This document shows, piece by piece, positions 19,021-44,402 of a stretch of 59,854 nt of DNA; position 1 is the stretch's first letter; every line of letters starts with the position of its first letter. The position numbers and the translations under genes are program-made. The stretch spans positions 1-59,854 of IMG/VR virus record IMGVR_UViG_3300030419_008063. One strand, written 5' to 3'. The notes beneath the pieces are model-generated. The model was not told the origin of the DNA and searched no databases. It worked only from the letters and a program-made list of their open reading frames with translations. The DNA is from a virus.

Positions 19021-20286
19021 TTGGATAAAAAAATAAAAGTGCTTACCATTAGTGATCACCCTTTGAGTCCGTCAGGTGTCGGATCGCAAACCAGATATGT
19101 GATAGAAGCGTTGTTGAAAACTGAAAAATTTAAGTTTATTTGTCTGGGCGGAGCAATGAAACATAGTGATTATCGCCCAATGCAGACGGAAGAATGGAAG
19201 GACGAATGGATTATTTATCCAGTCGATGGATATGGCACTGAAGAAGTTGTAAGATCTGTTTTAAGAACAGAAAGACCAGATATTCTTTGGTTTATGACGG
19301 ATCCGCGTTTTTATGAATGGTTATGGGGCATGGAGCATGAGATCAGAACTTTAGTTCCCATGGTTTATTATCACGTATGGGACAATTACCCGCTTCCAAA
19401 ATTCAATAATAAGTTTTACAGATCAAACGATTTCATCGCGGCAATTTCGAAAGTTACACATGACATTGTACAGAAAGTTTCACCTGATGTTGATAGCGAA
19501 TATGTGCCACATAGTGTCAATACTGATATTTTCAAAAAATTAGACAATATAGATGAACTTAGAGAGCAACTTCTAGGAGAGGAAAATGAAAATAAATTTT
19601 TTGTCTTTTGGAATAATAGAAATGCTCGTCGCAAAATGACCGGATCGGTTCTTTGGTGGTATAAAGAGTTTCTTGATAATATAGGCAAAGACAATGCAAT
19701 AATGGTTATGCACACAGATCCTACCGATGTTCACGGTCAAGATCTTGCAATGCTTATCGATACTTTGGAATTGGACAAGTCTCAAATTCGAATTTCTTCG
19801 CAAAAAGTACCACCAGAAGCGTTGGCAACTGTATATAATGCCGCGGACGTAACCGTCAATATTTCAGATGCTGAAGGTTTTGGCTTGGCGACTTTGGAGT
19901 CTTTATCCTGCGAGACTCCTATTATTGTCAACATGACCGGCGGCTTGCAAGAACAGGTTACAGATGGTGAAAAATATTTCGGTGTAGGTATTGAACCATC
20001 GTCAAAGGCTGTGATTGGATCTCAGCAAGTTCCTTATATATATGAAGATAGAGTTTCTAAAGAAGATTTTGTAAAAGCCCTTGAACTCATGTACAATCTC
20101 TGGAAAGATAAGCCTGAAGAATATGAAAATTTGGGAAAAATGGGTCGAGAACATGTAGAGAAAAATTATAATTTTGAAACATTCAACAAACAGTGGACGG
20201 ATATTATGTTAAAAGTCCACGAAAAACATGGTTCATGGCAGACGAGAAAAAATTATAAATCATGGGAATTATTAGAGGTTAAATAA
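19021..20286 (+). CDS. GT-B glycosyltransferase (GT4-like), 421 aa
   Basis: Starts at TTG 19021 behind AAGGGG. The N-terminal Rossmann domain opens KVLTISDHPLSPSGVGSQTR, and the C-terminal domain has VNISDAEGFGLATLESLSC then TPIIVNMTGG, the E-x7-E donor-binding pattern of GT4. The acceptor is unknown. Unlike most GT4 enzymes it has no membrane-associated patch, so a soluble enzyme is likely. It is the first gene of the 23-gene sugar island; the next gene follows after 2 nt. Confidence 0.8.
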   Translation: MDKKIKVLTISDHPLSPSGVGSQTRYVIEALLKTEKFKFICLGGAMKHSDYRPMQTEEWKDEWIIYPVDGYGTEEVVRSVLRTERPDILWFMTDPRFYEWLWGMEHEIRTLVPMVYYHVWDNYPLPKFNNKFYRSNDFIAAISKVTHDIVQKVSPDVDSEYVPHSVNTDIFKKLDNIDELREQLLGEENENKFFVFWNNRNARRKMTGSVLWWYKEFLDNIGKDNAIMVMHTDPTDVHGQDLAMLIDTLELDKSQIRISSQKVPPEALATVYNAADVTVNISDAEGFGLATLESLSCETPIIVNMTGGLQEQVTDGEKYFGVGIEPSSKAVIGSQQVPYIYEDRVSKEDFVKALELMYNLWKDKPEEYENLGKMGREHVEKNYNFETFNKQWTDIMLKVHEKHGSWQTRKNYKSWELLEVK

Positions 20287-20288
20287 TA

Positions 20289-21575
20289 ATGAGAACAAAA
20301 GTATTTGTAAGAGGTCCGGTCTTGAGCAGGTCCGGCTACGGAGAGCATGCTCGTTTTATTCTCAGGTCGTTGAGATCTCAGCATGAAAAGTTTGATATAT
20401 ATGTACAGAATATAAACTGGGGTCAAACTGGATGGATTTTCGATGACAACGAAGAAAGGGAGTGGATCGATAGAAAAATTGAAAAAACGTCCACTCTAAT
20501 AGCTCAAAATAAGAAGCCGGCATATGATATGTCTATTCAAGTTACTATTCCCCAAGAATTTGAAAATCTTGCTCGCGTAAATATTGGAGCTACTGCCGGC
20601 ACAGAAACAACTAGAATATCCCCCCAATGGATTGAAAAATCAAACAACATGAACAAAATTATTTTTGTTTCAAACCATGCGAAAAGTGCATTTAAAAATT
20701 CGTCCTATTCAGGCCAAAATGCTGAAACTGGTCAAATTGTCAAAGATTTTAGATGCACTATACCTATGGACGTTGTAAATTATCCTGTTAGAATAGTGGA
20801 GCCATCTGATGCGGAATATAATTTTGATTATGATTTCAATTTTCTAATCATGGCACAATATTCGCCGCGAAAAAATCTAGAAAAAACTATTGAATGGTTA
20901 GTCGAAGAATTCTATGATAGGGAAGTAGGAATCATTTTAAAAATGAACCTAAAAAATGATTCCATTATTGATAGACACCATTCTTACGAAAAACTAAAGC
21001 AACATGTAGTTACAAAATATCCAGACATGAAATGTAAATTATATCTTCTTCATGGAACTTTGTCAGAAGGTGATATGTCGGCTCTTTTTCAACATCCCAA
21101 AGTCAAGGCAATGGTAAATATTGCCCACGGTGAGGGATTTGGCCTTCCTATATTTGAGGCAGCATATTATGGCTTACCTGTTATTTGCCCGGAATGGGGA
21201 GGTCAACTAGATTTTTTACATGTTCCTGTGAAAAACAAAAAAGGGAAAACAAAAAATAAAGCTTACTTTGCCAAGGTTGATTATGATATCAAGCCAATTC
21301 AAAAAGAAGCTGTTTGGGAACCAGTACTGACCAAGGACTCTAGCTGGTGTTATCCAAAACAGGGAAGTTTTAAGATGAAGTGCAGGGAGGTAGTCCGCGA
21401 TTATAAAAAATATAAGAAAATGGCCGAAACCTTGAGAAAGCATATTTTGAAAAACTTCAAAGAAGAAGATATGTATGAAAAATTTGTTTCTTGTATTGAG
21501 GAGTTTATAATCCCAAGCGCATCACAAGAAGAAGTTGATAATCTTTTCGCAGAACTAGTCGAAAGTGCAAGATGA
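20289..21575 (+). CDS. GT-B glycosyltransferase, 428 aa
   Basis: Begins MRTKVFVRGPVLSRSGYGEH, like several phage and bacterial GT-B enzymes that start with a GPxxxxSGYG loop. The C-terminal half has LIMAQYSPRKNLE and NIAHGEGFGLPIFEAAYYG with VICPEWGG, the donor-binding site. Full length for GT4. It overlaps the next gene by 4 nt. Sugar and acceptor unknown. Confidence 0.8.
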   Translation: MRTKVFVRGPVLSRSGYGEHARFILRSLRSQHEKFDIYVQNINWGQTGWIFDDNEEREWIDRKIEKTSTLIAQNKKPAYDMSIQVTIPQEFENLARVNIGATAGTETTRISPQWIEKSNNMNKIIFVSNHAKSAFKNSSYSGQNAETGQIVKDFRCTIPMDVVNYPVRIVEPSDAEYNFDYDFNFLIMAQYSPRKNLEKTIEWLVEEFYDREVGIILKMNLKNDSIIDRHHSYEKLKQHVVTKYPDMKCKLYLLHGTLSEGDMSALFQHPKVKAMVNIAHGEGFGLPIFEAAYYGLPVICPEWGGQLDFLHVPVKNKKGKTKNKAYFAKVDYDIKPIQKEAVWEPVLTKDSSWCYPKQGSFKMKCREVVRDYKKYKKMAETLRKHILKNFKEEDMYEKFVSCIEEFIIPSASQEEVDNLFAELVESAR

Positions 21576-23191
21576 TAATATTTTGTTCAGATATTTTTAG
21601 AGAATTTTATGCCGGCGGTGCGGAGTTAACAACCGATGCAATTATAGAAGATTCTTTGATCCCTGTGGGGAAAATATTTTCTTCATCTGTCAACATGAAA
21701 ACTCTTGAACAGAATAAGGACAAATTTTGGGTATTTAGCAATTTTAGTAATTTATCGGATAACGCTCTTTTTTATATTGCAAAAAATATAAAATATGCAA
21801 CTTTGGAATATGATTATAAATATTGTGAATATAGATTGCCGGAACTGCATAAACATGTTGAGAAAAAAGATTGCGATTGTCATAATTCGACAAGGGGAAA
21901 AATTATTTCTATTTTTCTCAAGAATGCGCAAGCTACTTTTTGGATGTCTCACAAGCAAAAAAAACATTATGAGGAAATGTTTCCTTTTTTATCTAAACAT
22001 AATAATATTGTTCTTAGTTCGGTGTTTTCCAGTGAGTCTTTGGAATATTTTAGAGAGTATCAAAAAAATCCCAAAAAGAAGAATGATAAATGGATTATAA
22101 CTGGCAACCCATCATGGGTGAAGGGCCTCCAAGCTTCTATCAAATATGCTGAAGATAACGAATTAGATTATGAAATTGTCAATGGCATACCTTATGACGA
22201 AATGTTGGATAAGCTGGCAGAATCAAAAGGTATAATATTTTTTCCCAAAGGCAGGGATACATGCCCTAGATTTACAATTGAAGCAGCTTTGCTTGGTTGC
22301 GAAACAATACTAAATGAAAATGTACAGCACAGAGACGAAAAATGGTTTGAAAATCCAAAAACAATTTTGGAATATATGGAAAAAAGAACAGAAGTTTTCT
22401 GGAGAGAGTGTTTCAAATACGTTCCAGAAATTCCAAAAGTAGATAAATTAGACGAAAATACGCATTTTAAGATTGTGGTTCCTTTCTACAATGCTGAAAG
22501 GTGGATTGAAAAGTGTATTAATAGTGTAAAAATGCAAAATTATGACAATTTTACGTGTTATTTGGTCGACGATATATCTACCGACAACACTGTGGAATTA
22601 GCCAAAAAAATAATCAAAGACGATAAAAGATTTAGAATAATTGAAAATAAAGAAAAAAAATATGCTTTAGGAAATATTCATGACACAGTTGAACACTCTG
22701 AAGCGAAGGATGATGATGTTATTATTCTTTTGGATGGGGATGATTGGCTGTCATGTTATGATGTTCTCCCTAAGTTGAACGAAGTTTATCAAACAAATGA
22801 TTGTACAATGACTTATGGCAGCTATTTCATGCACCCGTTTGGTGTGCGAGGTGTTGAGCCATCAGAATATCCCAAAGAAGTTATAGAATCTAACGGATAT
22901 AGGGAAGATAAGTGGCGAGCTTCTCACCTGAGAACGTTCAAATACTTATTGTGGAAAAACTTGGATAAAAATGATTTGAAATATGAGAATGGTGAATTTT
23001 TCAAAATGACGTATGATCAGGCAATCATGCTTCCGTTGCTTGAAATGTCTGGAGAGAAAGCAAAATATATAGATCATATTATGCACGTATATAATAAGGA
23101 AAATCCGTTGAATATTGACAAGAACAAAGCAGAAGAACAACACAACTTAGCTTTGAAAATAAGAAATAAGAAAAAATATAAAAGAATATGA
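21572..23191 (+). CDS. Two-domain glycosyltransferase: GT-B N-terminus fused to GT2, 539 aa
   Basis: Residues about 1-280 look like a compact GT-B unit (IITGNPSWVKGLQASIKYAE, then FFPKGRDTCPRFTIEAALLG). From about 300 a GT-A/GT2 domain begins (FKIVVPFYNAERWIEKCINS) with VDDISTDNT and the metal-binding LLDGDDW. One chain may therefore add two sugars in succession. Part of the coupled island (4-nt overlaps at both ends). Confidence 0.75.
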   Translation: MIIFCSDIFREFYAGGAELTTDAIIEDSLIPVGKIFSSSVNMKTLEQNKDKFWVFSNFSNLSDNALFYIAKNIKYATLEYDYKYCEYRLPELHKHVEKKDCDCHNSTRGKIISIFLKNAQATFWMSHKQKKHYEEMFPFLSKHNNIVLSSVFSSESLEYFREYQKNPKKKNDKWIITGNPSWVKGLQASIKYAEDNELDYEIVNGIPYDEMLDKLAESKGIIFFPKGRDTCPRFTIEAALLGCETILNENVQHRDEKWFENPKTILEYMEKRTEVFWRECFKYVPEIPKVDKLDENTHFKIVVPFYNAERWIEKCINSVKMQNYDNFTCYLVDDISTDNTVELAKKIIKDDKRFRIIENKEKKYALGNIHDTVEHSEAKDDDVIILLDGDDWLSCYDVLPKLNEVYQTNDCTMTYGSYFMHPFGVRGVEPSEYPKEVIESNGYREDKWRASHLRTFKYLLWKNLDKNDLKYENGEFFKMTYDQAIMLPLLEMSGEKAKYIDHIMHVYNKENPLNIDKNKAEEQHNLALKIRNKKKYKRI

Positions 23192-24084
23192 ACATCCATT
23201 TTGAGAACGTTGACATCAATAGTCATAGTGGGCCAAATTCTTTTGCTTCAAAACTTGTAAAGTATATGAAACAAAGGGGGCACTCTTTTGATCCTTCTTT
23301 ACCAGCCGATGTCGATCTTTGTTTTATAGAATCTTTCAAAGCAAAGCATAACAATCCAATGGTGTTGAGGCTGGACGGAATTTATTTCAATACAATGCAG
23401 GATTATAATTTTCAAAATAGAAATATACGCCTTAGCTATGAGAGAGCCGACGGCGTTATTATTCAATCTGAATTTGACAAGAAATTGATATTTGAGTATT
23501 TTGGAGAGCACAGAAACGCAACAGTTATTCGAAACGGCGCAGATACCGAATTCATTAAAAGAATCCAGCCAGCTCTAAATACAAGGTTTGATAAGATTTG
23601 GTCTTGCGCTTCATACTGGCGACCTCATAAAAGATTAGATGAGAATATAAAATATTTTCTAGAGCATTCCGGAAAAAATGATTGTCTTTTTGTTGCCGGC
23701 ACCATACCACCAGAACATGAAAGGTTTGAGGACGGAAGAATTTTATACACTGGCGAGCTAGATTTAGAACATTTATTGAAACTATATAAAACATCAGACT
23801 ATTTTGTTCACTTGGCATGGCTAGATCATTGTCCAAATGTTGTTGTTGATGCAAAAGCAGCCGGCTGTAAGATTATTTGTTCTTCTGCTGGAGGAACATC
23901 AGAAATAGCTGGAAATGGTGACATCATAATACAAGAGGAAGAGTGGAATTTTGAACCGGTTGAGCTTTATAATCCTCCAAAATTAGATTTTTCCAAAAAA
24001 ATAATAAAAAAAGAAAACACAGATGTATGTATGAAATTTGTTTCTGAAAAGTATGAAAAATTCTTAGAAGAAACTAAGAGATAA
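23188..24084 (+). CDS. GT-B glycosyltransferase (GT4-like), 298 aa
   Basis: A short GT-B protein. The N-terminal part (NIHFENVDINSHSGPNSFAS) contains the SGPN loop, then VIRNGADTEFIK before the second domain, and HLAWLDHCPNVVVDAKAAGC with IICSSAGGTSEI for donor binding. About 60-100 residues shorter than usual GT4 enzymes because the N-terminal domain is small. Overlaps the preceding gene by 4 nt. Confidence 0.75.
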   Translation: MNIHFENVDINSHSGPNSFASKLVKYMKQRGHSFDPSLPADVDLCFIESFKAKHNNPMVLRLDGIYFNTMQDYNFQNRNIRLSYERADGVIIQSEFDKKLIFEYFGEHRNATVIRNGADTEFIKRIQPALNTRFDKIWSCASYWRPHKRLDENIKYFLEHSGKNDCLFVAGTIPPEHERFEDGRILYTGELDLEHLLKLYKTSDYFVHLAWLDHCPNVVVDAKAAGCKIICSSAGGTSEIAGNGDIIIQEEEWNFEPVELYNPPKLDFSKKIIKKENTDVCMKFVSEKYEKFLEETKR

Positions 24085-24086
24085 AA

Positions 24087-25016
24087 ATGAAAAAAATTTA
24101 TATTTTAGATGGTAATGAAAATTGGATTTGTGATAGATTCACAAGAGAGTGGCGCACAAACAATCCGGAACTTTGTGCCAAAAATCCCATGGAAGCCGAT
24201 ATTCTCTGGCTTCTAGCAGAATGGAAGTGGGATTCTATTCCTCCAAGCATTTTAGATGAGAAAAAAGTAGTTGTTACCATTCATCACATCGTCCCGGAAA
24301 AGTTTCACAAAGAAAAGGCTTTTGGGTTTTCTTTTCGAGATAAGTTTGTTGATTTATATCACGTCCCTTGTTATAAGACTATGATGGCTCTTAGGCCTTT
24401 GACTTCAAAACCAATAGAGATAGCACCTTTTTGGGTAAATTCAGATATTTTCTTCGAGATTGAAAATAAACAAACTCTGAGAGAAAAATATAATATTGCT
24501 GTTGACAAATTTGTTATAGGTTCTTTTCAAAGAGATACAGAAGGGCATGATCTCAAGAGCCCAAAGCTTGAAAAAGGCCCGGATATATTTTGTGATGTAG
24601 TTGAACATCTTCACTCTAAAAATAAAAATATTCAAGTTTTGTTGGCCGGTTGGAGGAGGCAATATGTTATTAATCGCCTAGAGACTGCCGGAATCAAATA
24701 TTATTATTATGAATTTTGTGATTTTGAAACGTTAAATGAGTTATATAATTGTTTAGATTTATATATTGTATCTTCTAGATGTGAAGGCGGACCTCAAGCA
24801 ATCGTAGAATGCGGAATAACAAAAACGCCGATTATCTCAACAGATGTGGGATTAGCTAGTCGTTTTTTACCCCATGAAAGTATAGCAGATAGCGATAAAT
24901 TGTTATTTGCAGAACCAAATGTTGAACAAACTTATAAAAATGTGGTAGAATATGAAATAGGCAAGTACATGAAAAAATTTAACAATCTAATCATAAACAG
25001 TGAGAAATTATTATGA
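24087..25016 (+). CDS. GT-B glycosyltransferase (GT4-like), 309 aa
   Basis: The start is atypical (KKIYILDGNENWICDRFTRE), but the second domain is clear: FVIGSFQRDTEGHDLKSPK, VLLAGWRRQYVI and SSRCEGGPQAIVECGITKTP with ISTDVG. The charged RDTEGHDL loop may bind the nucleotide phosphate. Acceptor unknown. Ends in a 4-nt overlap with the carbamoyltransferase gene. Confidence 0.75.
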   Translation: MKKIYILDGNENWICDRFTREWRTNNPELCAKNPMEADILWLLAEWKWDSIPPSILDEKKVVVTIHHIVPEKFHKEKAFGFSFRDKFVDLYHVPCYKTMMALRPLTSKPIEIAPFWVNSDIFFEIENKQTLREKYNIAVDKFVIGSFQRDTEGHDLKSPKLEKGPDIFCDVVEHLHSKNKNIQVLLAGWRRQYVINRLETAGIKYYYYEFCDFETLNELYNCLDLYIVSSRCEGGPQAIVECGITKTPIISTDVGLASRFLPHESIADSDKLLFAEPNVEQTYKNVVEYEIGKYMKKFNNLIINSEKLL

Positions 25017-26629
25017 AAATAGCAGGGGTATATTCAGGTCACGATTGTTCTTTTTATATTTCGGAAAACGGAAAACCGATTGTGCATGCGGAATATGAAA
25101 GGTATATCAGAGAAAAAGAACCAGAAGGCGATTCAATAGGGTTTATGTTCGAGGAATATAATCAGTGTGATGATATCAAGCATGTTGCTCTTTGTCATCC
25201 GGTTTCAAAAACTGCTGGATATAAAGAATCTTATGAAAAACTTAAAAACATCGTAAAGAAGAATGACGGAGAAATATATTCCGTTGGACATCACCAAGCA
25301 CACGCAGCAAATGCATTTTTTTCTAGCAATTTTGAAGATGCTCTTATTATAACAATCGATGGTGGAGGGTATGAAGATAACAACTTTGTATCTGCCTGTA
25401 CGGCATGGAAAGGCAAAGGGAACAAAGTTGAGCCGCTCCATCTCTTTCCTTTGGAAAAAATAAATATTGGCGGAATATGGACCAGAGTTACAAGATATAT
25501 TTTTAAATTATCTTCTGGGTGGCCAAGAGGACATTCTGCTGGGACTGTGATGGCCATGGCAGCTTTGGGCAACTCGGAGAGATTTTTAGATGATTTTTAT
25601 AAGATGTTGACAACAGACTTGGCAATGGCCTCCGCGCGTCCGCACAACCAGCCAAAAGGGGTTTATGATGGAAACGATCCTGAACATCCTTATTTGAAGA
25701 AGTGGGCTAAACTAGCAGATGAAAGTGAAGAGAATAAATTTGATATTGCGGCCGCTTTGCAGAAAGCAACAGAGAAATATCTCAAAGGATTGATAGGGGA
25801 GATACTTCAGAAAAATCCAAGCAAGAATCTTTGTCTTTCTGGCGGTGTCGCTCTAAATTCAGTCGCAGTGGGTAAATTTAGAAAATGGTTTCCAGATTTG
25901 GAGGGCATTTATGTTACACCAACACCACATGATGGTGGGTTGCCAATTGGGGCTGCTCAATATGTGTGGCATCAAATATTAGACAATCCGAGAATCAAGT
26001 GGGAAGATAATTATACTCCTTATCTGGGATATGTTTATGAAAATGTTGAAGAGACTTTGAAAAATTACTTTGACAAGGTGGAGTGGCGAAAAGCTTCTGA
26101 CGATCAGGTGGTAGATCTTTTGTCGGAAGAAAATATAATCGCAGTATTTGGAGGAGGCTCAGAGTCTGGAAGAAGGGCTTTGGGGAATAGAAGCATCCTT
26201 GCAGATCCTCGTAGTCCGAATATGAAAGATTTGATCAACGAAAAGGTAAAACACAGACAGTGGTTTAGGCCATTTGCACCTTCTATTCTCCGTGAAGAGG
26301 TTTCTAAATGGTTTGAAGAAGATATTCCCAGCCCTTATATGAGTTTTGTTCTTAAATTCAAAGAAGAGGCAAGAGACAAAGTTCCGGCCGTTGTTCATTT
26401 TGATGGCTCAGCAAGACTTCAAACAGTGGCCGAAAAAGATAATAAATGGTATTATAATTTCATAAAAAAATGGCATAAAAAATCAGGTGTCCCCATTGTT
26501 CTCAACACCAGTTTCAATGATCGAGAACCTATATGCGAAACAGCCCAACACGCAGTGAACTGTTTTCTAAAGACTGATATTGATTATTTATATTTTTATG
26601 ATGAAAATTTATTGGTTAGCAAGAGATAG
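25013..26629 (+). CDS. O-carbamoyltransferase (NodU/TobZ/CmcH family), 538 aa
   Basis: The N-terminal Kae1-like domain has YSGHDCSFYI, VGHHQAHAANAFF (metal-binding His) and ITIDGGG. The C-terminal YrdC-like part has GGGSESGRRALGNRSILADP and QWFRPFAPSI, signature stretches of the NodU/CmcH/TobZ family. These enzymes make carbamoyl-AMP from carbamoyl phosphate and ATP and transfer the carbamoyl group to a hydroxyl, usually on a sugar or antibiotic. Full length. In this island it most likely O-carbamoylates a glycan residue. Confidence 0.85.
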   Translation: MKIAGVYSGHDCSFYISENGKPIVHAEYERYIREKEPEGDSIGFMFEEYNQCDDIKHVALCHPVSKTAGYKESYEKLKNIVKKNDGEIYSVGHHQAHAANAFFSSNFEDALIITIDGGGYEDNNFVSACTAWKGKGNKVEPLHLFPLEKINIGGIWTRVTRYIFKLSSGWPRGHSAGTVMAMAALGNSERFLDDFYKMLTTDLAMASARPHNQPKGVYDGNDPEHPYLKKWAKLADESEENKFDIAAALQKATEKYLKGLIGEILQKNPSKNLCLSGGVALNSVAVGKFRKWFPDLEGIYVTPTPHDGGLPIGAAQYVWHQILDNPRIKWEDNYTPYLGYVYENVEETLKNYFDKVEWRKASDDQVVDLLSEENIIAVFGGGSESGRRALGNRSILADPRSPNMKDLINEKVKHRQWFRPFAPSILREEVSKWFEEDIPSPYMSFVLKFKEEARDKVPAVVHFDGSARLQTVAEKDNKWYYNFIKKWHKKSGVPIVLNTSFNDREPICETAQHAVNCFLKTDIDYLYFYDENLLVSKR

Positions 26630-26640
26630 GAGAAAAAGTT

Positions 26641-34374: not shown

Positions 34375-34399
34375 AGTTTATATAATTAGCGAACTTTGT
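34367..34399 (+). repeat. 33-bp direct repeat, copy 1
   Basis: Bases 34367-34399, from the ATG of the PhyH gene, are identical to 35581-35613, from the ATG of neuB. The match begins exactly at the start codon and ends after codon 11; the bases on either side differ. Confidence 0.95.
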
Positions 34400-35566
34400 T
34401 ATGAATCATTGGAAATTTTTAATGATAAAAAAGGTTTATTGGTTTATTTAAGAGATATTTTTTCACAGCAAGATATTCAAGAAATAAAAACACTTATTAC
34501 AGAAGATAAAGGAGCATTTGTTGATCTTTATTCTGCTTTTGACCAAAAGCAAGAAGATTATTTTTCTGAAGTTGACTGCGAAGAGGAGCTTAGATTATAT
34601 GTTAATGAACTTTTTTCCAATGGTTTCGCAAAAATTGAAAATGTTTTTTCCGAAGATGAATTGGAGGAAGTAAAAGAATTTCAAGATTTAATGCAAGAAG
34701 CTATATTTCCTGACAATGGTATTTCCGGCTATATTGTAACTCCTTACACGGATCTATCAAAGAATTCCGAGCAGATATATCCTCTTTGGAGAGAAGTTTT
34801 CTCCCACCGGCGCGCATGGCACCCGAACGCTGGAGGGCATGCCAACCCGAAGGAAAAAAAGCATATTTCCCTCTCCCCTGCGCTACCAAATGATGGCCAA
34901 CAGAGAATTCAGTCAAAAAATTTAGGCATTCATCCTCCCGGTATTAATACCATGGTTGAAAAACCAATATTGTGTAAAATTTTTGCACACTATAACAACC
35001 TTAAAAAATATGAGATTGATCGCTCTACTCTGGAATTTATATTCCCCGCCCCAATTAATCACAATGGATGGCACAGAGATACTGCATTTAATGAACTAAA
35101 AGCGATGATTTTGTTAGAAGATGTTGATGAATATACTGCCCCGATACTCAGTGCTATTGGTTCCCACCGCGCCAAGAAAGATTTTGATAAACAGCATTTG
35201 CATGATATGTTTGTAATGACTCCTAATGGTAAGTTTGGTGATCCATCTTCATGGCCGGCCAACACAAGATGGCCCGAATATGCTATTCATAAAGATAGTT
35301 CTCATAATGGGTATATTTCACATGAGCATGCTCCATTTAATATGTCTCCTTCGGAACGTATACAAAAACATGTAGTTATCAATGATTGCGAATATGAATT
35401 AGGTGCCGGCACTGGAAAAGCTGGAGATGTATTATTTTTCGAAACTTGCGCTCTTCATTCCGGTACGCGAGCGCATTTTAAAAGTCGTAGAAATATTTCA
35501 CTTTCGAGTGCAATATATTCATCTCCAAAAACTATATTTTTCAATATGTTAAATGACTTTGTTTAA
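34367..35566 (+). CDS. Phytanoyl-CoA-dioxygenase-family (PhyH) hydroxylase, inserted at the start of neuB, 399 aa
   Basis: The Fe(II)/2-oxoglutarate site is readable: His236 and Asp238 in NGWHRDT and the distal His364 in CALHSGTR with basic residues after it. PhyH enzymes hydroxylate small molecules, including sugars and lipids. The first 11 residues (MSRVYIISELC) are identical, base for base, to those of the next gene (neuB), and no other in-frame ATG exists before residue 109. The gene therefore uses a captured neuB start. The conserved PhyH part begins near residue 83 (LFSNGFAKIENVFSEDEL); residues 12-80 are a poorly conserved leader. Confidence 0.75.
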   Translation: MSRVYIISELCYESLEIFNDKKGLLVYLRDIFSQQDIQEIKTLITEDKGAFVDLYSAFDQKQEDYFSEVDCEEELRLYVNELFSNGFAKIENVFSEDELEEVKEFQDLMQEAIFPDNGISGYIVTPYTDLSKNSEQIYPLWREVFSHRRAWHPNAGGHANPKEKKHISLSPALPNDGQQRIQSKNLGIHPPGINTMVEKPILCKIFAHYNNLKKYEIDRSTLEFIFPAPINHNGWHRDTAFNELKAMILLEDVDEYTAPILSAIGSHRAKKDFDKQHLHDMFVMTPNGKFGDPSSWPANTRWPEYAIHKDSSHNGYISHEHAPFNMSPSERIQKHVVINDCEYELGAGTGKAGDVLFFETCALHSGTRAHFKSRRNISLSSAIYSSPKTIFFNMLNDFV

Positions 35567-35580
35567 GAAAGGCGGATATT

Positions 35581-35613
35581 ATGTCTAGAGTTTATATAAT
35601 TAGCGAACTTTGT
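35581..35613 (+). repeat. 33-bp direct repeat, copy 2
   Basis: Second copy of the 33-bp sequence at 34367-34399, here as codons 1-11 of neuB. The residues fit the NeuB family (IISELC...GG), so this copy is the likely original in protein terms. Confidence 0.95.
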
Positions 35614-36276
35614 GGCCAATGGGGTGGTTCCATAAAGAGAGCAGAGCAAATGATTTTACAATCTAAGGTGGGAGGAGCAGATGCTGTAAAGGTTCAGCTT
35701 TGGGACACTTATAGAATGCCCGGAACTCATAGGAAAAAATGGGAATATCTTACGATGACAGAAAAGCATTTTCTTCATTTAAAAGATTATGCTGAAAGTT
35801 TGAATCTAGATTATTTTGCTTCGCCCTTTCACGAAGATAGGTTTGAGTGGATTAGAAAAGCCGGCCTGCAAACTAATAAAATCGCCAGCTCGCTTTTGGA
35901 ATGGGATATAAAACTATGCGAAAAGATGGTCAAATCTGATATAAAAACTTTTTGTTCATTAGGAAAATGGGAAGAAGACCATCTCCCATTCCAGAGAGAA
36001 AATGTATTTTATATGCACTGTGTTGCAAAATATCCCCATTCTTATAGAGAAGCTTTTGAGTTGTTACCACCAGTTTTTACAGAAAAACTTTGTGGATATA
36101 GCGATCACAGCATTGGAATCGAAGCTTGTAAAGATGCAGTAAAAAGAGGAGCAACTGTTATAGAGAAGCATTTTACAATTGATAGAGATCTTCAGTGTGA
36201 AACTGAAAGTGCACATGTGTGCTCTATGGAACTAGCAGAGCTTTCCGAGCTTAGAAATTTTTGTGAAAAGAGATGA
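35581..36276 (+). CDS. neuB: N-acetylneuraminate-synthase-like (NeuB) protein without SAF domain, 231 aa
   Basis: TIM-barrel NeuB motifs: IISELCGQWGGSIKRAEQM, GADAVKVQLW, FASPFHEDRFEWI, KIASSLLEWDI, GYSDHSIGIEACKDAV and GATVIEKHFTID. It would condense an N-acyl-hexose derivative with phosphoenolpyruvate to a nonulosonic acid. Typical NeuB is about 340 aa with a C-terminal antifreeze-like (SAF) domain; that domain is missing. AAAGGCGGA precedes the ATG, so the gene kept or gained its own ribosome-binding site after the PhyH insertion. Works with the NeuA-like gene at 33814. Confidence 0.8.
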   Translation: MSRVYIISELCGQWGGSIKRAEQMILQSKVGGADAVKVQLWDTYRMPGTHRKKWEYLTMTEKHFLHLKDYAESLNLDYFASPFHEDRFEWIRKAGLQTNKIASSLLEWDIKLCEKMVKSDIKTFCSLGKWEEDHLPFQRENVFYMHCVAKYPHSYREAFELLPPVFTEKLCGYSDHSIGIEACKDAVKRGATVIEKHFTIDRDLQCETESAHVCSMELAELSELRNFCEKR

Positions 36277-36962
36277 TCCAAAGACCGAAAAAAGTTTTAA
36301 TTATTGCTGCTCATTATGATGATGAAACGATTGGTGCCGGTGGAACTATAAAAAAGTGGTCCGATTTGGGGACGGAGATTCACGTACTTTTCGTGACAAA
36401 TGGAAGCACAGGAATCGATCAAACTGGTGACTATACTTCTGAAGACATTGTTACAATAAGATCTGAGGAATCCAAAGAAGTAGCTAGGATGTTAGGTATT
36501 TCAAACATATACAATTTGAATGTGCCGTCTCAGAGTGTAGAAAATACACAAAGATTTTTTCACAGAATTATTTTTTATATTCGAAAACTTCAGCCAAACT
36601 TGGTTATGACTCACTTAAATGTGGACAAGCATCGAGATCACGTTCAAATATCAGAAGTTGTCAAGGAAGCATGTTGGAAATCGAATGAAGATATTCACGA
36701 AGAGCTGGGCGAATGCCACAGGGTTGATGATTTGTGGGCATTTGAAGTGACAGATCTTCTTCCAAAAGTTGATGTTGTTGTTGATATAAGTAACACAATT
36801 GACTATAAATTGGCCGCTATGGAGGTATATTCATCGCAAAAAAACGTCATAAAAGGCATTCTAAGCCATATTTTGGGCCTTTCTAGGGTTAGGGGTTATA
36901 TGGTGGGGAAAATGCACGGAGAAGGCTTTATGCGGCTTTCTCATGGCCCTCTAGTGTGTTGA
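36273..36962 (+). CDS. PIG-L/LmbE-family de-N-acetylase, 229 aa
   Basis: AAHYDDETIGAGG gives the metal motif AHxDDE (His14, Asp16, Asp17, Glu18), and DKHRDHVQ gives the second metal ligand set (His120, Asp122, His123). Family members remove N-acetyl groups from GlcNAc-type sugars. Next to the formyltransferase-like gene this suggests deacetylation followed by formylation of a sugar amine. Overlaps neuB by 4 nt. Confidence 0.85.
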   Translation: MIQRPKKVLIIAAHYDDETIGAGGTIKKWSDLGTEIHVLFVTNGSTGIDQTGDYTSEDIVTIRSEESKEVARMLGISNIYNLNVPSQSVENTQRFFHRIIFYIRKLQPNLVMTHLNVDKHRDHVQISEVVKEACWKSNEDIHEELGECHRVDDLWAFEVTDLLPKVDVVVDISNTIDYKLAAMEVYSSQKNVIKGILSHILGLSRVRGYMVGKMHGEGFMRLSHGPLVC

Positions 36963-36969
36963 AATTGTT

Positions 36970-37701
36970 ATGAATATTTCGATTATTACATCTAACCACT
37001 TGCGTCACAAAGCTTTTGCAAAAAGATTGTGCGATATATTGAGTATAAAGACCGTTGTTTGCGAGAGCAAGAAGCGCTCAACAAAGCAATTTCACGAAAA
37101 AGAAAAAGATTATTACAAAGAAGTAGAAGAATGGTCCCCGTACAATCGTTTTGTTGTATGTGCAGAGGGTGCCGTCAACGGAGAGGTTATTGAAGGCATT
37201 CTCAAGAAAGACAAGTTGGATTATTTGTTCATTTTTGGCTGTAGTTTGTTAAAAAAGAATATTTTTTCAATTCCAAAGAAGGGGTGTATCAATATACACA
37301 CGGGTCTGGTGCAAAGTTTTCGCGGGGTTGACAGTAGTTTGTGGGCAATCTATGAAGAAAAACCCGAAGCAATTGGAGCAACGATTCATTTTGTCAACAA
37401 TTCAATTGACGGAGGGAATATCATAGCCCAAAGCAGAACAGAGCTGGACATGGAAGACGATTTGCATGACATTTTTTTCAAAACTTGTAATACGGGTTTT
37501 CAACTTCTTGAGGAAAAAGTTTTTGATATACTTGCTGGCCGTACCCGGCAGAAAAAATTGACAAAAAAAGGAAAACTTTATCAGAAAAAAGATCTTACAA
37601 AGCAGGTTGTAGAAGAGGTTGTCCAAAAAACGCCCGATGTGATAAGAAAATATTTACAAAACAAAGAAAAAATTGATTTGGGACTTAGGTTGATAAAATG
37701 A
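36970..37701 (+). CDS. Formyltransferase-family enzyme, probably sugar N-formyltransferase, 243 aa
   Basis: The formyl-transfer triad is visible: Asn108 and His110 in CINIHTGLVQSFRG and Asp147 in NNSIDGGNII. The N-terminal Rossmann part is abbreviated (NISIITSNHLRHKAFAKRL). Relatives use N10-formyltetrahydrofolate to formylate Met-tRNA, phosphoribosylglycinamide or amino sugars; the neighbourhood argues for a sugar amine. The C-terminus is a basic helical tail rather than a tRNA-binding domain. Confidence 0.75.
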   Translation: MNISIITSNHLRHKAFAKRLCDILSIKTVVCESKKRSTKQFHEKEKDYYKEVEEWSPYNRFVVCAEGAVNGEVIEGILKKDKLDYLFIFGCSLLKKNIFSIPKKGCINIHTGLVQSFRGVDSSLWAIYEEKPEAIGATIHFVNNSIDGGNIIAQSRTELDMEDDLHDIFFKTCNTGFQLLEEKVFDILAGRTRQKKLTKKGKLYQKKDLTKQVVEEVVQKTPDVIRKYLQNKEKIDLGLRLIK

Positions 37702-38540
37702 AAGTAGATATTATCCTATGTGCGCACAATGCAGAGAGAACAATAAAAGATTGCATATCTTCTTTGGTCGTGCAGACTCACAAAGATATCAATATTCATG
37801 TTTTTGATGATGCCAGCACAGACAATACTTTGGAAATACTGAGAAAATATCGCGACACTAGAGTCAATATTGTATCATCAAAGAAAAATATTGGAACTTA
37901 TGCTGGAAAGAATTTTATTTATAAAAACTTTTGCGCTGGATCCGACTATATCGCCCTTCAAGATGCTGACGACTATAGTCATCCGCGAAGAATAGAAATA
38001 CAATCTAAATTCCTTAAGGATAATGATATAGTATGTGCTGGCACTGGCATTGTAGAGTTTTGGGAACAGGGTTCATTGCCATGGACAAAACATTCCGGCG
38101 AGTGGATCGGAAACAGTAGAGAGAATTATTATCCTGAACTCATAGAGAATAAAGATTTAGAAGAGGTTTTGAGCTATTTGCAAGACAATGAAAATTATCA
38201 AAGATATTTGAAATTTAAGTTTTGTATGAATGGGTCAGTTATGTTCGAGACAGAATTTTTAAAAAGTATTGGAGGTTGGGATGGAGAAGCTCGTGTAGCA
38301 GCCGATACTGATATTTTTATTCGTACCTTGGCCAATAATAATATCTGCAATATACAAAGATGTCTTTATTATCGAAGGTTTCATAAGAATTCCCTTACAG
38401 CTAGAAAAGACTGGGGAATAAAGTCAGATTTTAGAAAAGAATATAACTTGAACAGAATTCCTGTTATTGAAAGCTCGCTACAGAACATACCTGTGGTAAG
38501 AAATTTTTACTATCCGGAATTTGATTATGAGGTTTATTGA
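37698..38540 (+). CDS. GT2 glycosyltransferase, 280 aa
   Basis: A canonical GT2 start (VDIILCAHNAERTIKDCISS, then VFDDASTDNTLEIL), D-x-D region LQDADDYSHPRR and the later AADTDIFIRT. Soluble, no transmembrane helices. The stop shares its last base with the asparagine-synthase ATG. Confidence 0.85.
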   Translation: MKVDIILCAHNAERTIKDCISSLVVQTHKDINIHVFDDASTDNTLEILRKYRDTRVNIVSSKKNIGTYAGKNFIYKNFCAGSDYIALQDADDYSHPRRIEIQSKFLKDNDIVCAGTGIVEFWEQGSLPWTKHSGEWIGNSRENYYPELIENKDLEEVLSYLQDNENYQRYLKFKFCMNGSVMFETEFLKSIGGWDGEARVAADTDIFIRTLANNNICNIQRCLYYRRFHKNSLTARKDWGIKSDFRKEYNLNRIPVIESSLQNIPVVRNFYYPEFDYEVY

Positions 38541-40165
38541 TGTGTGGAATTATAGGAACAACAAACAAGAGACTAAATCGCACATCTTTGAATCAGATTT
38601 CTCACAGAGGTCCCGATGAAAGAGGGCTACATTCTGATTCGGATATATGCCTAGGTCACACTAGATTATCTATTTTGGGGCTTGACTGCGGAACCCAGCC
38701 GTTGTCCGATGACGAAATTGTCCTTTCCTACAATGGTGAGATTTACAATTATATAGAACTGGCAAACTCTCTAGGTATAAGTTCTTCTTCTGATACAGAG
38801 GTGTTGGCAAAATATTATCAAGTTCATGGCTTGGAAAAGACATTGAGAGATATAAATGGTATGTTTTCCATTGCGATATATGATAGAAAAAAAGATATTA
38901 TATATCTGGTGAGAGATCGGATGGGGATAAAGCCTCTGTTTTATTCAACACATAAAAACGAAATAAGTTTCTGTTCAGAAATAAATCCACTTCGTGATCT
39001 GATTGGAGTTGAAGAGCTTACTATTAATAAAATGGCTGTAGCCCTGTTTTTCAATCTTTATTATATTCCATGGCCAAATACAATTTGGAATGAAATAAAA
39101 TCTGTTCCTCCCGGAAGTTATATTGAATATAATTTAAAAACAAAAAAACATAAAATTGTTCAATATTGGAACATTGAAAAAAGAGAAAGAAATGAATCTG
39201 ATTTTGAACAATTGGAAAATTTATTGTGCAACTCTGTCAAGTTGAGAATGAGAAGCGATGTTCCTTATGGCGCATATCTCTCCGGCGGAAATGATTCAAC
39301 GCTCGTTGTAAAATGTATGACGGAACACAAAGAGGAAAATAAAACTTTCACAGCCGTAATTCAAGACGAAGAATTGAACGAAAAAGAATATGCAGACCTT
39401 GCGGCAAAAAAATTCAAAACAAAACACACAGATATTGATGTAGAATATGGGGATATAAAAATATCCTTTCTTAGGGAATTGATAAAATATTTTGGACAAC
39501 CTTTCGCAGATTCTTCTATTGTTCCGACTTATTTGATATCAAAAGAAATAGCTAAAAACGTTACAGTTGCCATCGGCGGAGATGGTGCAGATGAAATATT
39601 TTGTGGGTATAATAAATATAATAATCTGACCGCAGATATCAAAAGCAGGTTTTATAGAAATGTTCTTAATAATTTTCTCAATTTAGAGTATAATAAAGAT
39701 ACTTATGGATACTTAAAATCTCTTCTTCCCTATGAAACAGAAGATGATTATGAGACTTTGCGACTTTTAGATATTAAGTTTTTTTTAGAAGGAGATATTC
39801 TGCAAAAAGTAGACAGAATGAGCATGGCTAGTTCTTTGGAAGTTCGGGTGCCATTTTTGGATCATAGAGTGGTTGAGTTTTCAAATCGCCTGAAACGAGA
39901 ACACATCTTTGGAGATGTCCGTAAGTACGCCGTCAAGCATGTCCTTTCAAAATATATGTCTCATGACTTCGTTCATCGTTCAAAGATAGGATTTATGTTG
40001 AACATAACGGAGTGGATTGAGCCTTTGCAGGAGTATGTAAACTTCTCACCTGTTTTAAAAAGCGGAATTTTCAAAGAAGGGTTCGATATCAAAAAGATTG
40101 ATAACAATTATTTAAAATTTGCTATCTTGATTTTTACACTATGGTACGAGGAGAATTATGCGTAA
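38540..40165 (+). CDS. asnB: Asparagine-synthase-family glutamine amidotransferase, 541 aa
   Basis: I start at ATG 38540 so that Cys follows the initiator Met (MCGIIG), as needed for the class II glutaminase nucleophile; an in-frame TTG one codon upstream is not used. HRGPDERG and SYNGEIYNY are glutaminase motifs. The synthetase half has AYLSGGNDST (PP-loop) and DGADEIFCGYNKY. In O-antigen clusters such enzymes turn uronic acids into uronamides. With the dehydrogenase at 41673 and the epimerase at 40788 that role fits better than amino-acid synthesis. Confidence 0.85.
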   Translation: MCGIIGTTNKRLNRTSLNQISHRGPDERGLHSDSDICLGHTRLSILGLDCGTQPLSDDEIVLSYNGEIYNYIELANSLGISSSSDTEVLAKYYQVHGLEKTLRDINGMFSIAIYDRKKDIIYLVRDRMGIKPLFYSTHKNEISFCSEINPLRDLIGVEELTINKMAVALFFNLYYIPWPNTIWNEIKSVPPGSYIEYNLKTKKHKIVQYWNIEKRERNESDFEQLENLLCNSVKLRMRSDVPYGAYLSGGNDSTLVVKCMTEHKEENKTFTAVIQDEELNEKEYADLAAKKFKTKHTDIDVEYGDIKISFLRELIKYFGQPFADSSIVPTYLISKEIAKNVTVAIGGDGADEIFCGYNKYNNLTADIKSRFYRNVLNNFLNLEYNKDTYGYLKSLLPYETEDDYETLRLLDIKFFLEGDILQKVDRMSMASSLEVRVPFLDHRVVEFSNRLKREHIFGDVRKYAVKHVLSKYMSHDFVHRSKIGFMLNITEWIEPLQEYVNFSPVLKSGIFKEGFDIKKIDNNYLKFAILIFTLWYEENYA

Positions 40166-40778
40166 TCCACAAGCTTCAATAATTGTTACAAATTATAATT
40201 ATGGAAAATATATTTCAAGATGTATTCGAAGTTGCCTAGCTCAGAAAAATATAAGGTGCGAAGTTATTGTAATAGATGATTGTAGTGTCGATAATTCTTT
40301 AGAAGTGCTTGAAACATTTAAAGACGATATAAGAATTATTAGAAACGAAAGAAATCTTGGCGTTGCAGGATCTTCTAACGTAGGGGTCAAAGCTGCTAAA
40401 GGCCAGTTTGTTGTTCGTGTAGATGCGGACGACTTTATACAACCGGATATGTGTTATTTTATGAAAACATATTTAGAATCTAATCACGATGCTTTTTGTG
40501 TCTCTTGTGATTACGCCATGGTCGACAATCAAGAAAATATGATTGAGAGAAAATATGCTGAAAAAGATAATATCTCTTGTGGTATAATGTATCGTAGAGA
40601 CTTGCTTCTAGAAGTTGGCGGATATAATCCAAAAATGCGCCATCGCGAAGAAGAGGAGTTACGAAAGAGATTAGGCGAAGATTATAAAATTCACCATTTG
40701 CGTATTCCGTTTTATCGCTATCGGATGCACAAGAGCAACAAAACAAAGCAGTCTGAATACAAGACGTGGCAAATTTAG
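40158..40778 (+). CDS. Short GT2 glycosyltransferase, 206 aa
   Basis: GT-A/GT2 motifs ASIIVTNYNYGKYISRCI, VIDDCSVDNSLEVL and VRVDADDFIQPD (D-x-D). At 206 aa the acceptor-binding C-terminal region is minimal (HREEEELRKRLGEDY), yet the catalytic core is complete. Overlaps the amidotransferase gene by 8 nt. Confidence 0.8.
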   Translation: MRNPQASIIVTNYNYGKYISRCIRSCLAQKNIRCEVIVIDDCSVDNSLEVLETFKDDIRIIRNERNLGVAGSSNVGVKAAKGQFVVRVDADDFIQPDMCYFMKTYLESNHDAFCVSCDYAMVDNQENMIERKYAEKDNISCGIMYRRDLLLEVGGYNPKMRHREEEELRKRLGEDYKIHHLRIPFYRYRMHKSNKTKQSEYKTWQI

Positions 40779-40787
40779 GAGAATAAA

Positions 40788-41663
40788 ATGGCTAGATGCT
40801 TAGTCACTGGACATAAAGGTTATATTGGCTCTCATCTCTTTAGAACATTACGAGAACAGGGGCATGAAGTCCTAGGGATTGATCTGAAAGAAGAATATCC
40901 AAAAGATATTTTAGATTACCTAAGAGAAAAGGCAGATAAATCTGGTTTTCACCCACATTATGAAAACTTCAAACCAGAATATATATTTCACTTGGCTGCG
41001 ATACCTAGAGTGCCTTATAGCATAGAAAATCCTGTTGAAGTTATGGAAAATAACATAATGGCAAATTCTATAGTTCTAAATTTTGCTAGGAAAGTGGGAG
41101 CTAAGAGGGTAATATATTCAAGCTCATCTTCTGTAATGGGGAACGGAGACGGCCCGGAAAGTCCATATGCCGTTTCAAAATTGACACCAGAGTTAGAATG
41201 TAAAATGTATTCTAAGTTATATGGCTTGGACACCGTTTGTTTGAGATATTTTAATGTATATTCAAAAGATCAGACGGTTGACGGCCCATATGGAACCGCT
41301 GTTGCATCTTTTATGGATGCTATCAAAAAAGGAACTAACCCTTATATTACCGGTGACGGCGAACAGAGAAGAGATATGTTACATGTTAGTGATGCTGTTA
41401 GAGCCAATATATTTTGTATGGAATATGAAGGCAAGTTTGGAGGCCAGCATTTTGATACTGGTACCGGCCATAATATCTCTCTAAATGAAATAAAAAATAT
41501 AGTTTTAAGTAAGCATTCAGATGTTGAGTTTGATTATGTGCCGCCTAGGCCCGGAGATGTTATGTTGACTAAAGCCAACACTCTGCCTTTTAATAATTTG
41601 GGCTGGCATACCAAAGTATCTATACAATCTGGAATAAAAGAGTGTTTTAATTTTACCAAATAG
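40788..41663 (+). CDS. NAD-dependent sugar epimerase (GalE/WbpP-like), 291 aa
   Basis: CLVTGHKGYIGSHLF is the NAD-binding loop, YSSSSSVMG the catalytic Ser strand, PYAVSK the Tyr-Lys pair, LRYFNVY and RRDMLHVSDAV are extended-SDR signatures. Close in plan to UDP-GlcNAc/Glc 4-epimerases. Sitting next to a dehydrogenase gene recalls the WbpO/WbpP pair that makes UDP-GalNAc uronate. Substrate not proven. Confidence 0.8.
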   Translation: MARCLVTGHKGYIGSHLFRTLREQGHEVLGIDLKEEYPKDILDYLREKADKSGFHPHYENFKPEYIFHLAAIPRVPYSIENPVEVMENNIMANSIVLNFARKVGAKRVIYSSSSSVMGNGDGPESPYAVSKLTPELECKMYSKLYGLDTVCLRYFNVYSKDQTVDGPYGTAVASFMDAIKKGTNPYITGDGEQRRDMLHVSDAVRANIFCMEYEGKFGGQHFDTGTGHNISLNEIKNIVLSKHSDVEFDYVPPRPGDVMLTKANTLPFNNLGWHTKVSIQSGIKECFNFTK

Positions 41664-41672
41664 GAGAAATAA

Positions 41673-42506
41673 ATGAAAGTAGGAATTGTTGGAAATGGCT
41701 TTGTTGGAAATGCATGTGCCTATGGTTTTAGTGAATATGTGCCGGTATATATCCACGACAAAGATCCGGCTAAAAGTGTAAACTCTTTCGAAGAAACAGT
41801 AAATGAATCTGATTTCATATTTGTTTCGGTCCCAACCCCAATGAATGAAGATGGCTCTATCAATCTGGACATTGTTTATAATGTTTTCGAGAGCATCAGT
41901 CAGGTCAACACTAGAAAAGACAATGTGGTTTTGCTAAAGTCGACAGTCATTCCCGGAACAACCGAAAGGTTGAGCAAGAATTTCCCCGACTTGAATATTG
42001 TTTTTAATCCAGAATTTTTGACAGAAAGAAAAGCCAAATTTGATTTTATTAATCAGGCGAGAATTATTTTAGGCGGAAAACCTGAGCATACAAAAAAAGT
42101 TGAAAAGCTATATAGGTTTAGATTCAACAATTGCAATCTAATCCATACCGACTCAAAGACAGCAGAGTTTATTAAATATTTTGGGAATATTTTCTTTGCC
42201 GTAAAGGTTTCTTTTGCGAATGAAATGAGAAGGATAAGTGATTTAGTTGGGGTAGACTGGAATGCAGCTTTGGCCGGTTTTGTCGCTGATGCTCGCGTTG
42301 CAGATTCTCACTTGAGAGTTCCCGGCCCGGATGGTAAAAAGGGCTTTGGAGGAAGCTGTTTCCCTAAAGATATAAATGCATTTATAACCTTTTGTGAAAG
42401 TTTGGGTGTCAATGCAAATGTTATAAAAGCTGCTTGGAAAACAAACTTGGAAGTTCGACCTGAAAAAGATTGGGAAGATCTGAAGGGTAGAGCAGTTACT
42501 AATTGA
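41673..42506 (+). CDS. Second short nucleotide-sugar dehydrogenase (UGD-like), 277 aa
   Basis: KVGIVGNGFVGNACAYGF binds NAD; VPTPMNEDG and KSTVIPGTTERLS are family motifs; the catalytic Cys is Cys229 in KGFGGSCFPKD. Like the 26641 protein it ends soon after the central domain and lacks the C-terminal UDP-binding domain. The two are clearly related but divergent. It is the last gene of the sugar island; AGGAG precedes the ATG. Confidence 0.8.
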   Translation: MKVGIVGNGFVGNACAYGFSEYVPVYIHDKDPAKSVNSFEETVNESDFIFVSVPTPMNEDGSINLDIVYNVFESISQVNTRKDNVVLLKSTVIPGTTERLSKNFPDLNIVFNPEFLTERKAKFDFINQARIILGGKPEHTKKVEKLYRFRFNNCNLIHTDSKTAEFIKYFGNIFFAVKVSFANEMRRISDLVGVDWNAALAGFVADARVADSHLRVPGPDGKKGFGGSCFPKDINAFITFCESLGVNANVIKAAWKTNLEVRPEKDWEDLKGRAVTN

Positions 42507-42516
42507 GGAGAAAAAA

Positions 42517-42708
42517 ATGAGTTTAAAATTATCAGAACAAGCAATGGGGGCGATCATGATGGCTCTCCAAAAATCACTAATGGAACAATCAGATATAGTA
42601 CCAGTTTTGCAAAACATGGAATGGCATCCGGGATCAAACGGAAAACTATATGTGGAAAACCCCCCCATCGTAAAAACCGAGGCGCTCGAAGAAGACGAAG
42701 ATGCCTAG
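42517..42708 (+). CDS. Conserved T4-like phage protein, 63 aa
   Basis: Begins MSLKLSEQAMGAIMMALQKS and contains EQSDIVPVLQNM, a small conserved protein I recall next to gp55 in marine T4-like phages, function unknown. It marks the return from the sugar island to core phage genes. Overlaps the zinc-ribbon gene by 8 nt. Confidence 0.65.
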   Translation: MSLKLSEQAMGAIMMALQKSLMEQSDIVPVLQNMEWHPGSNGKLYVENPPIVKTEALEEDEDA

Positions 42709-44401: not shown

Positions 44402-44402
44402 A

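Follow-up and report, generated by a model that had tools for sequence, protein, structure and literature searches.

The window analysed here is the whole IMG/VR virus record IMGVR_UViG_3300030419_008063 (59,854 bases), which is probably a piece of a larger phage genome. Between positions 19021 and 42506 it carries an island of genes for the synthesis and decoration of a glycan, and this island is one version of a slot that is filled with differing sugar genes in hundreds of related viruses. The reading we favour, with somewhat better than even confidence, is that it represents a fixed-site hypervariable glycan locus of a marine Far-T4-like myophage lineage, in which two conserved glycosyltransferases, GT4a and GT4b, glycosylate a soluble acceptor, most likely a virion protein.

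A sugar-gene locus with conserved edges

Open reading frame calling placed 24 contiguous plus-strand genes in the island, one more than the 23 counted in the initial annotation of the window. Nearly all encode carbohydrate enzymes, as that annotation had stated and as Pfam matches now back, glycosyltransferases of both GT-B and GT-A type among them. Long same-strand runs are ordinary in phages, but more than 20 consecutive sugar enzymes are not. The tight packing described previously (overlaps of 1–16 nt or tiny gaps) holds for most junctions, with gaps of at most 14 nt, but not for the largest overlap, of 25 nt, between the genes at 31534–32253 and 32229–32855. The left neighbour of the island is a PD-(D/E)XK nuclease (18227–19009, plus strand, like the island genes and the right-flank genes up to gp55; PF12705, PDDEXK_1, E 1.5e-21), in agreement with the RecB-like nuclease proposed earlier. 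The island itself opens with GT4a (19021–20286; PF00534), a glycosyltransferase of GT-B fold and the lineage-wide anchor, followed by GT4b (20289–21575). To its right lie, in order, a conserved 63-aa protein (p63; 42517–42708), a Zn-ribbon protein (42701–42958; PF09723), p109, with one membrane segment predicted by hydropathy scan (42958–43287), and a gp55-like late sigma factor (43244–43954), for which the earlier gp55 label finds a weak PHROG match (phrog_234, E 8e-4). The guanine-plus-cytosine (GC) content is unbroken at both edges of the island. The T4 late-promoter word TATAAATA occurs at 13 sites, compared with a mean of 5.4 expected; neither this count nor promoter and terminator scans gave any sign that the island is regulated separately.

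As a probe for relatives, gp55 retrieved at least 598 viral loci among the matches listed and GT4a retrieved 174 loci; both were far better than NeuB, which found only two close relatives (L002 and L003). We pieced together the GT4a-to-gp55 stretch in 16 independent marine contigs of 100–205 kb and, together with Flavobacterium phage immuto, Microcystis phage Mel-JY01 and Rhodothermus phage RM378, examined 19 phage genomes. Gene calls in the relatives were mechanical, and the marine contigs may be incomplete, which makes gene absences provisional. All 16 contigs had nuclease–GT4a–GT4b at the left and gp55 at the right, with almost only plus-strand genes between them; in one, an extra gene separated the nuclease from GT4a. 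The marine-clade locus always ended at gp55, usually via p63, whose homologues marked the right edge in 14 contigs. Its length ranged from 3.4 kb in contig G005, where GT4a and GT4b are followed directly by p63, to 27.5 kb in G015, which has 36 plus-strand genes.

GT4a was found in all 19 genomes, including those of the phages of Flavobacterium, Microcystis and Rhodothermus, and GT4b in 18 of them; in immuto, which infects Flavobacterium sp. LMO8, GT4a is immuto26A_90. In immuto and Mel-JY01 a homologous nuclease–GT4a–GT4b run, interrupted in Mel-JY01 by one unrelated gene between nuclease and GT4a, is followed by sugar genes; their nucleases are 26–27% identical to that of the window, and their gp55 genes lie elsewhere. 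RM378 carries a bare GT4a–GT4b pair, with a weak GT4b homologue (E 8e-7). Because 16 independent contigs as well as isolates show this architecture, the island is neither a product of chance nor a chimera. The initial annotation had considered a join of host to phage sequence, or absence of these genes from phage contigs; what we found is that contigs of up to 205 kb and cultured phages carry the locus. We therefore rejected an assembly chimera, which has practically no chance of being correct given the same edges in all the marine contigs, the same left edge in two isolates and the continuity of GC content at both edges.

Relatives of gp55 in contigs of prokaryote genomes numbered three only, in metagenome-assembled genomes (MAGs) of Flavobacteriales, Actinomycetes and WOR-3. 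In the candidate division WOR-3 MAG (L150; CP070664.1) the gp55 homologue is partial (58% over 77 aa); it sits in a 2.8-Mb chromosome and may be a phage remnant or an assembly artefact. Shine-Dalgarno counts gave no pointer to the host.

The interior of the locus is exchanged and under purifying selection

We measured conservation along 66 dereplicated GT4a loci as the share of the other loci, on average, in which a homologue with 40% identity or more was present. Counted from the left, conservation was 0.77 for the gene before GT4a, 1.00 for GT4a, 0.75 for GT4b, 0.17 for the next gene and 0.02–0.05 three to six genes past GT4a. Counted from the right, it was 1.00 for gp55, 0.65 at the p63 position and 0.03–0.07 seven to twelve genes upstream. 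The cassette interior is exchanged wholesale between close relatives at this fixed site. Loci L053 and L056, whose gp55 proteins are 97.8% identical, have none of five cassette genes in common, and L029 and L031 (gp55 96.9% identical) share none of seven at 70% identity and one of seven at 40%. When 235 interior proteins of the relatives were pooled, they belonged mostly to the short-chain dehydrogenase/reductase (SDR), GDP-mannose dehydratase-like, DegT, NeuB, cytidylyltransferase, methyltransferase, acetyltransferase and glycosyltransferase families.

The ratio of nonsynonymous to synonymous substitution rates (dN/dS) was mostly 0.02–0.24 in non-saturated homologous cassette pairs and was higher only in remote pairs; therefore, retained cassette genes are under purifying selection. 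This bears on the idea that the cassettes are transient cargo or stuffer DNA, taken from hosts and functionless for the phage, which was once considered for cyanophage lipopolysaccharide (LPS) clusters (PMC3037559). The wide size range and fast turnover of the cassettes would suit such an origin, but their fixed location, uniform gene orientation and intact reading frames would not, and we rejected it on the dN/dS values as very improbable. By contrast, the proposal of the initial annotation that the island is a phage programme making and decorating a specific glycan is well supported by the Pfam enzyme calls, the recurrence in relatives and the dN/dS values. About half of the relatives' cassettes also encode a HAD-phosphatase-like protein of about 105 aa (DIDGTIC...TARG; L133:14699–15028 and relatives), which is absent from the window.

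Membrane steps were not detected

A simple hydropathy scan predicted membrane segments in none of the 24 island proteins, and three or more segments in none of 596 proteins encoded upstream of gp55 in the relatives; as a positive control, the same scan gave 6 segments for Wzy and 9 for Wzx of E. coli K-12. The initiating phosphoglycosyltransferase family PF02397 was absent from the 19 phage genomes, WecA-type enzymes not having been searched, and so was the flippase family PF01943, ABC exporters not having been searched; controls were positive in both cases. With no membrane step detected, an O-antigen-type polymer is an improbable product, and assembly of the glycan probably takes place in the cytosol, on a soluble acceptor of the phage.

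The locus nevertheless shares much with bacterial O-antigen clusters, namely conserved edges, a replaceable interior, the same enzyme classes and the arrangement of nucleoside diphosphate (NDP)-sugar enzymes and several glycosyltransferases in one operon-like block. It differs from them in that no Wzx, Wzy or PF02397-type initiating transferase was detected. Thus the likeness to O-antigen or S-layer loci noted initially covers the enzymes for building blocks and the layout with its interior swapped in place. It does not cover the pathway, for which, where tested, neither flippase nor polymerase nor initiating transferase was present.

Candidate acceptors of the glycan

In the reading that we favour, GT4a and GT4b would act in the cytosol and put the first sugars on a soluble acceptor of the phage. 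Rare activated sugars would come from the cassette enzymes; in the window these sugars may be a CMP-nonulosonate, a 3-deoxygenated sugar and uronic-acid derivatives bearing carbamoyl, formyl, amide and de-acetyl decorations. The remaining glycosyltransferases would lengthen the chain one residue at a time. The most likely acceptor would be a protein of the virion, such as the gp23-type capsid protein, which has a variable insertion of 200–270 residues; in this way each phage would bear its own type of surface glycan. A phage-encoded acceptor is favoured because phages of unrelated hosts retain the GT4a–GT4b pair, which can also occur by itself.

The window stops short of gp23, but a gp23-type capsid protein (PF07068) was found in 10 marine contigs and the three isolates. 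In these relatives its variable stretch contains 17–22% Ser+Thr, compared with 12–13% in the core, and variable parts of Far-T4 capsid proteins have been proposed to relate to virion-specific decorations (PMC4360716). An unrooted gp23 tree, in which RM378 formed a long branch, split off near-T4 and cyano-T4 phages with support of 100/100 and recovered the marine clade with 93/92; the marine contigs thus fall outside near-T4 and cyano-T4, and a Far-T4 placement is compatible with the tree. A megablast search of one relative's capsid region against phages gave no match. The GT4a structure model (mean predicted local distance difference test score 89.8) has as its best PDB match the chlorovirus NY-2A glycosyltransferase B736L (3oy2; profile E 9e-16, fold E 1e-20).

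Several points weigh against a virion acceptor. The virion acceptor is a predicted one, and no virion of the lineage is known to carry a glycan. The capsid insertion is only mildly rich in Ser and Thr, and the match of GT4a to B736L is suggestive only, because B736L itself has no established acceptor (PMC9614988). The cassette glycosyltransferases may use a lipid-linked intermediate of the host as substrate and rely on the host flippase, the nuclease that adjoins GT4a in nearly all of the lineage may hint at a role in DNA, and the possible incompleteness of the marine contigs touches each absence on which the argument draws.

The main rival is that the enzymes remodel the host envelope during infection: LPS or capsule would be altered, for example through the addition of sugars to lipid-linked intermediates of the host, in order to block the adsorption of competing phages or the rebinding of progeny. 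This is how glycosyltransferase islands of pelagimyophages have been read in the literature (PMC7029224), and it draws further support from the resemblance to O-antigen building-block enzymes and from the position of the locus beside a tail hydrolase gene that is hypervariable too. We nonetheless consider it unlikely, though to be taken seriously, since the cassettes encode no membrane-bound transfer, flippase or polymerase proteins, since GT4a–GT4b persists in the phages of Flavobacterium, Microcystis and Rhodothermus, hosts that differ in their envelope glycans, and since the pair survives alone in G005 and RM378. Less probable still is that GT4a, GT4b and the cassette decorate modified phage bases as a protection against nucleases. 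T4 provides a precedent, the nuclease–GT4a neighbourhood is conserved, and immuto separately encodes DpdA and a queuosine pathway. However, PF00303 (thymidylate synthase/dCMP hydroxymethylase family) was missing from the 16 marine contigs, where the control was positive, and from two of the three isolates, the third, immuto, having ThyA; the QueD family was found only in immuto; and escape from restriction does not need an elaborate hypervariable glycan. A search for Tet/JBP-type hydroxylases gave no match, but no positive control matched either, so that we do not claim their absence. The three acceptors left side by side in the initial annotation can therefore be ranked, with a virion protein most likely, the host surface as main rival and DNA least supported, as PF00303 is lacking in the marine relatives.

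If a virion protein is the acceptor, the locus could define phage glycotypes. We put forward tentatively, at slightly less than even odds, that each phage of this widespread marine lineage places one of very many glycan cassettes in the same genomic slot, that GT4a–GT4b mounts the cassette product on the virion and that near-identical phages consequently differ in surface chemistry as bacterial serotypes do. With the same reserve, this would be O-antigen-like diversification on proteins, without a membrane step and with a core conserved across phages of several bacterial phyla.

Comparison with known systems

Sugar-gene clusters were noted in marine phages from the first cyanophage genomes onwards, with examples in cyanophages (PMC3037559) and pelagimyophages (PMC7029224); so far they have been read as modifiers of host LPS or as possible stuffer DNA. 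The LPS clusters of the T4-like cyanophages P-SSM2, S-SSM7 and S-SM2 (PMC3037559) resemble the island as large sets of sugar enzymes in marine T4-like myophages, and a P-SSM2 cluster is near phoH, as in the window (phoH at 15545–16855). They occur, however, in few large genomes and in varying places, and their function was left unassigned, whereas the slot described here keeps its place throughout the lineage, with a conserved pair of glycosyltransferases as its border. None of the three cyanophages was among the 11 records matched by GT4a. The host recognition cluster of pelagimyophages (PMC7029224) is likewise a hypervariable island with glycosyltransferases in uncultured marine myophages, but it lies between VrlC and gp14, contains tail fibres and is dominated by GT8; the island of the window consists nearly purely of sugar genes between nuclease and gp55, with tail genes only past gp55. 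Moraphages (PMC12619734), an aquatic lineage of large phages, have four glycosyltransferase orthogroups among their core genes, but no cassette locus is described for them, the comparison being one of descriptions.

Further parallels come from viruses of eukaryotes. The fibril glycan clusters of Megavirinae (PMC10117803) and the capsid glycan genes of chloroviruses (PMC5408694) also combine virus-encoded rare-sugar pathways with glycosyltransferases, in sets of 6–33 genes whose content is clade-specific, as that of the window lineage is lineage-specific, and chlorovirus capsid glycosylation is cytoplasmic (PMC5408694). Their virion glycans are chemically proven, whereas the window belongs to a bacterial phage whose glycan is predicted, and in its lineage whole cassettes swap at one site. 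By analogy, virion-protein glycosylation like that of chloroviruses and Megavirinae would be the best reading of the locus.

The fixed slot, the conserved glycosyltransferase pair, the swappable interior, purifying selection and the lack of membrane steps together point to a dedicated phage function. Among mycobacteriophages, glycans reportedly occur on capsid and tail tube proteins (Freeman et al. 2023, as cited in PMC12619734). Few genes take part there; the window, by contrast, encodes a complete predicted rare-sugar supply. In the open-licence literature we came across no account, for this lineage, of a cassette that is swapped at a fixed site and bordered by a conserved pair of glycosyltransferases, and the novelty of the locus is not proven, because the search was limited to such papers. 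As this core is also present in cultured phages (immuto, Mel-JY01 and RM378), the target of glycosylation is directly testable. If virions do carry these glycans, phage surface chemistry would be a rapidly evolving trait with effects on adsorption, decay, grazing and recognition by lectins, and the cassettes would offer a rich supply of enzymes for rare sugars.

Predicted functions of the island genes

GT4b is followed by a glycosyltransferase with a C-terminal GT2 domain (21572–23191; PF00535, E 7e-24, residues 301–432). The GT4-type glycosyltransferases further comprise c (23188–24084; PF00534), d (24087–25016; PF13692, E 2.3e-10) and e (30635–31549; PF13692), and those of GT2 type comprise b (27431–28372; PF00535), c (37698–38540; PF00535, E 1.6e-24) and d (40158–40778; PF00535, E 3e-32). 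A possible CDP-glycerol/GT-B-like transferase at 32852–33817 matched PF04464 under the cut-off (E 7e-4).

Among the predicted sugar-nucleotide enzymes, UGDH1 (26641–27441) resembles UDP-glucose/GDP-mannose dehydrogenases and UGDH2 (41673–42506) UDP-glucose dehydrogenases. Of the usual three domains, each matches just the first and second (PF03721 and PF00984), the C-terminal domain family being unmatched. Shortened UGDH2 homologues (272–307 aa, 46–55% identity) lie near the right edge in seven of the 16 contigs, and homologues of SDR2 (40788–41663), a GalE-like NDP-sugar epimerase (PF01370, E 5e-46; PDB 4zrm, UDP-glucose 4-epimerase, E 8e-39), are found near the right edge in several relatives. 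SDR1 (28372–29367; PF01370, E 8e-37) belongs to the NDP-sugar 4,6-dehydratase/epimerase family; its best NCBIfam match, TIGR01181, was far under the cut-off. The DegT protein (29364–30638; PF01041, E 1e-100) aligned best with CDP-4-keto-6-deoxyglucose-3-dehydrase (PDB 3bcx), with the catalytic His in place of Lys and without the cysteine cluster (E1). As judged from this alignment, it fits a ColD-like pyridoxamine 5′-phosphate (PMP) 3-dehydrase, in line with the initial assignment. Such enzymes take off the C3 hydroxyl.

The candidate decorating enzymes are an O-carbamoyltransferase of the NodU family (25013–26629; PF16861, E 9e-64, and PF02543), a PIG-L family de-N-acetylase (36273–36962; PF02585, E 1.5e-28), a sugar N-formyltransferase-like protein (36970–37701; PF00551, E 2e-14) and an AsnB-type amidotransferase (38537–40165; PF00733, E 3e-66, and PF13537), which plausibly add carbamoyl groups, de-acetylate, formylate and form amides, respectively. 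A polysaccharide deacetylase-like protein (DUF2334) is encoded at 31534–32253 (PF10096, E 3e-12). Of the formyl-, carbamoyl- and methyltransferases named initially, the first two were borne out by Pfam, whereas the possible methyltransferase (32229–32855) had no Pfam match and remains a guess; a relative has a 60% homologue at the corresponding place in the gene order. At the right edge, p63 carries a strongly conserved motif, LS-x-ALQKSLxEQSDI.

The predicted nonulosonate enzymes are a short NeuA/PseF-like CMP-nonulosonate cytidylyltransferase (33814–34374; PF02348, CTP_transf_3, E 1e-22; TIGR03584 partial) and a NeuB-type synthase (35581–36276), whose match covers the TIM barrel only (PF03102, E 2e-28; PDB 6ncs, E 7e-19), the C-terminal SAF domain being unmatched. 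Between them lies a PhyH-type 2-oxoglutarate dioxygenase (34367–35566; PF05721). The only exact repeat of at least 25 bp in the window is a 33-bp direct repeat on the plus strand, with one copy at the start of PhyH (34367–34399) and the other at the start of NeuB (35581–35613). In relatives, PhyH is absent from the NeuA–NeuB junction. There L030 has nothing between the two genes, L002 has a protein that resembles an FkbM-type methyltransferase at its start, and L003 has one with a radical-SAM-like CxxxCxxC motif, the last two labels being read from the sequence. It looks as if a decorating enzyme was recently inserted at the start of NeuB.

Neighbouring genes

The gene at 44316–45827, which corresponds to the second gene past gp55 in relatives, is even more variable than the cassette: across 61 dereplicated loci, most of its length has essentially no counterpart with 40% identity or more. 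In the window it encodes a GH46 chitosanase-like domain, and in relatives this position carries exchangeable catalytic domains (Amidase_2, M23, M15/VanY, SLT, tail lysozyme and GDSL). It is perhaps a gp5-like tail hub with a swappable wall hydrolase. Further downstream, 46868–55309 encodes a 2,813-aa protein with no Pfam match; proteins at the homologous position have about 1,400–2,600 aa and 20–30% identity where detectable, and the product is possibly a giant tail or adhesin protein.

To the left of the island, a small HExxH zinc-metallopeptidase-like protein (17219–17905), for which the Pfam match was sub-threshold only, is encoded between phoH and the nuclease and is kept in most relatives. 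A trypsin-like protease with a hydrophobic N-terminal segment is encoded at 14571–15398 on the minus strand, opposite to the island.

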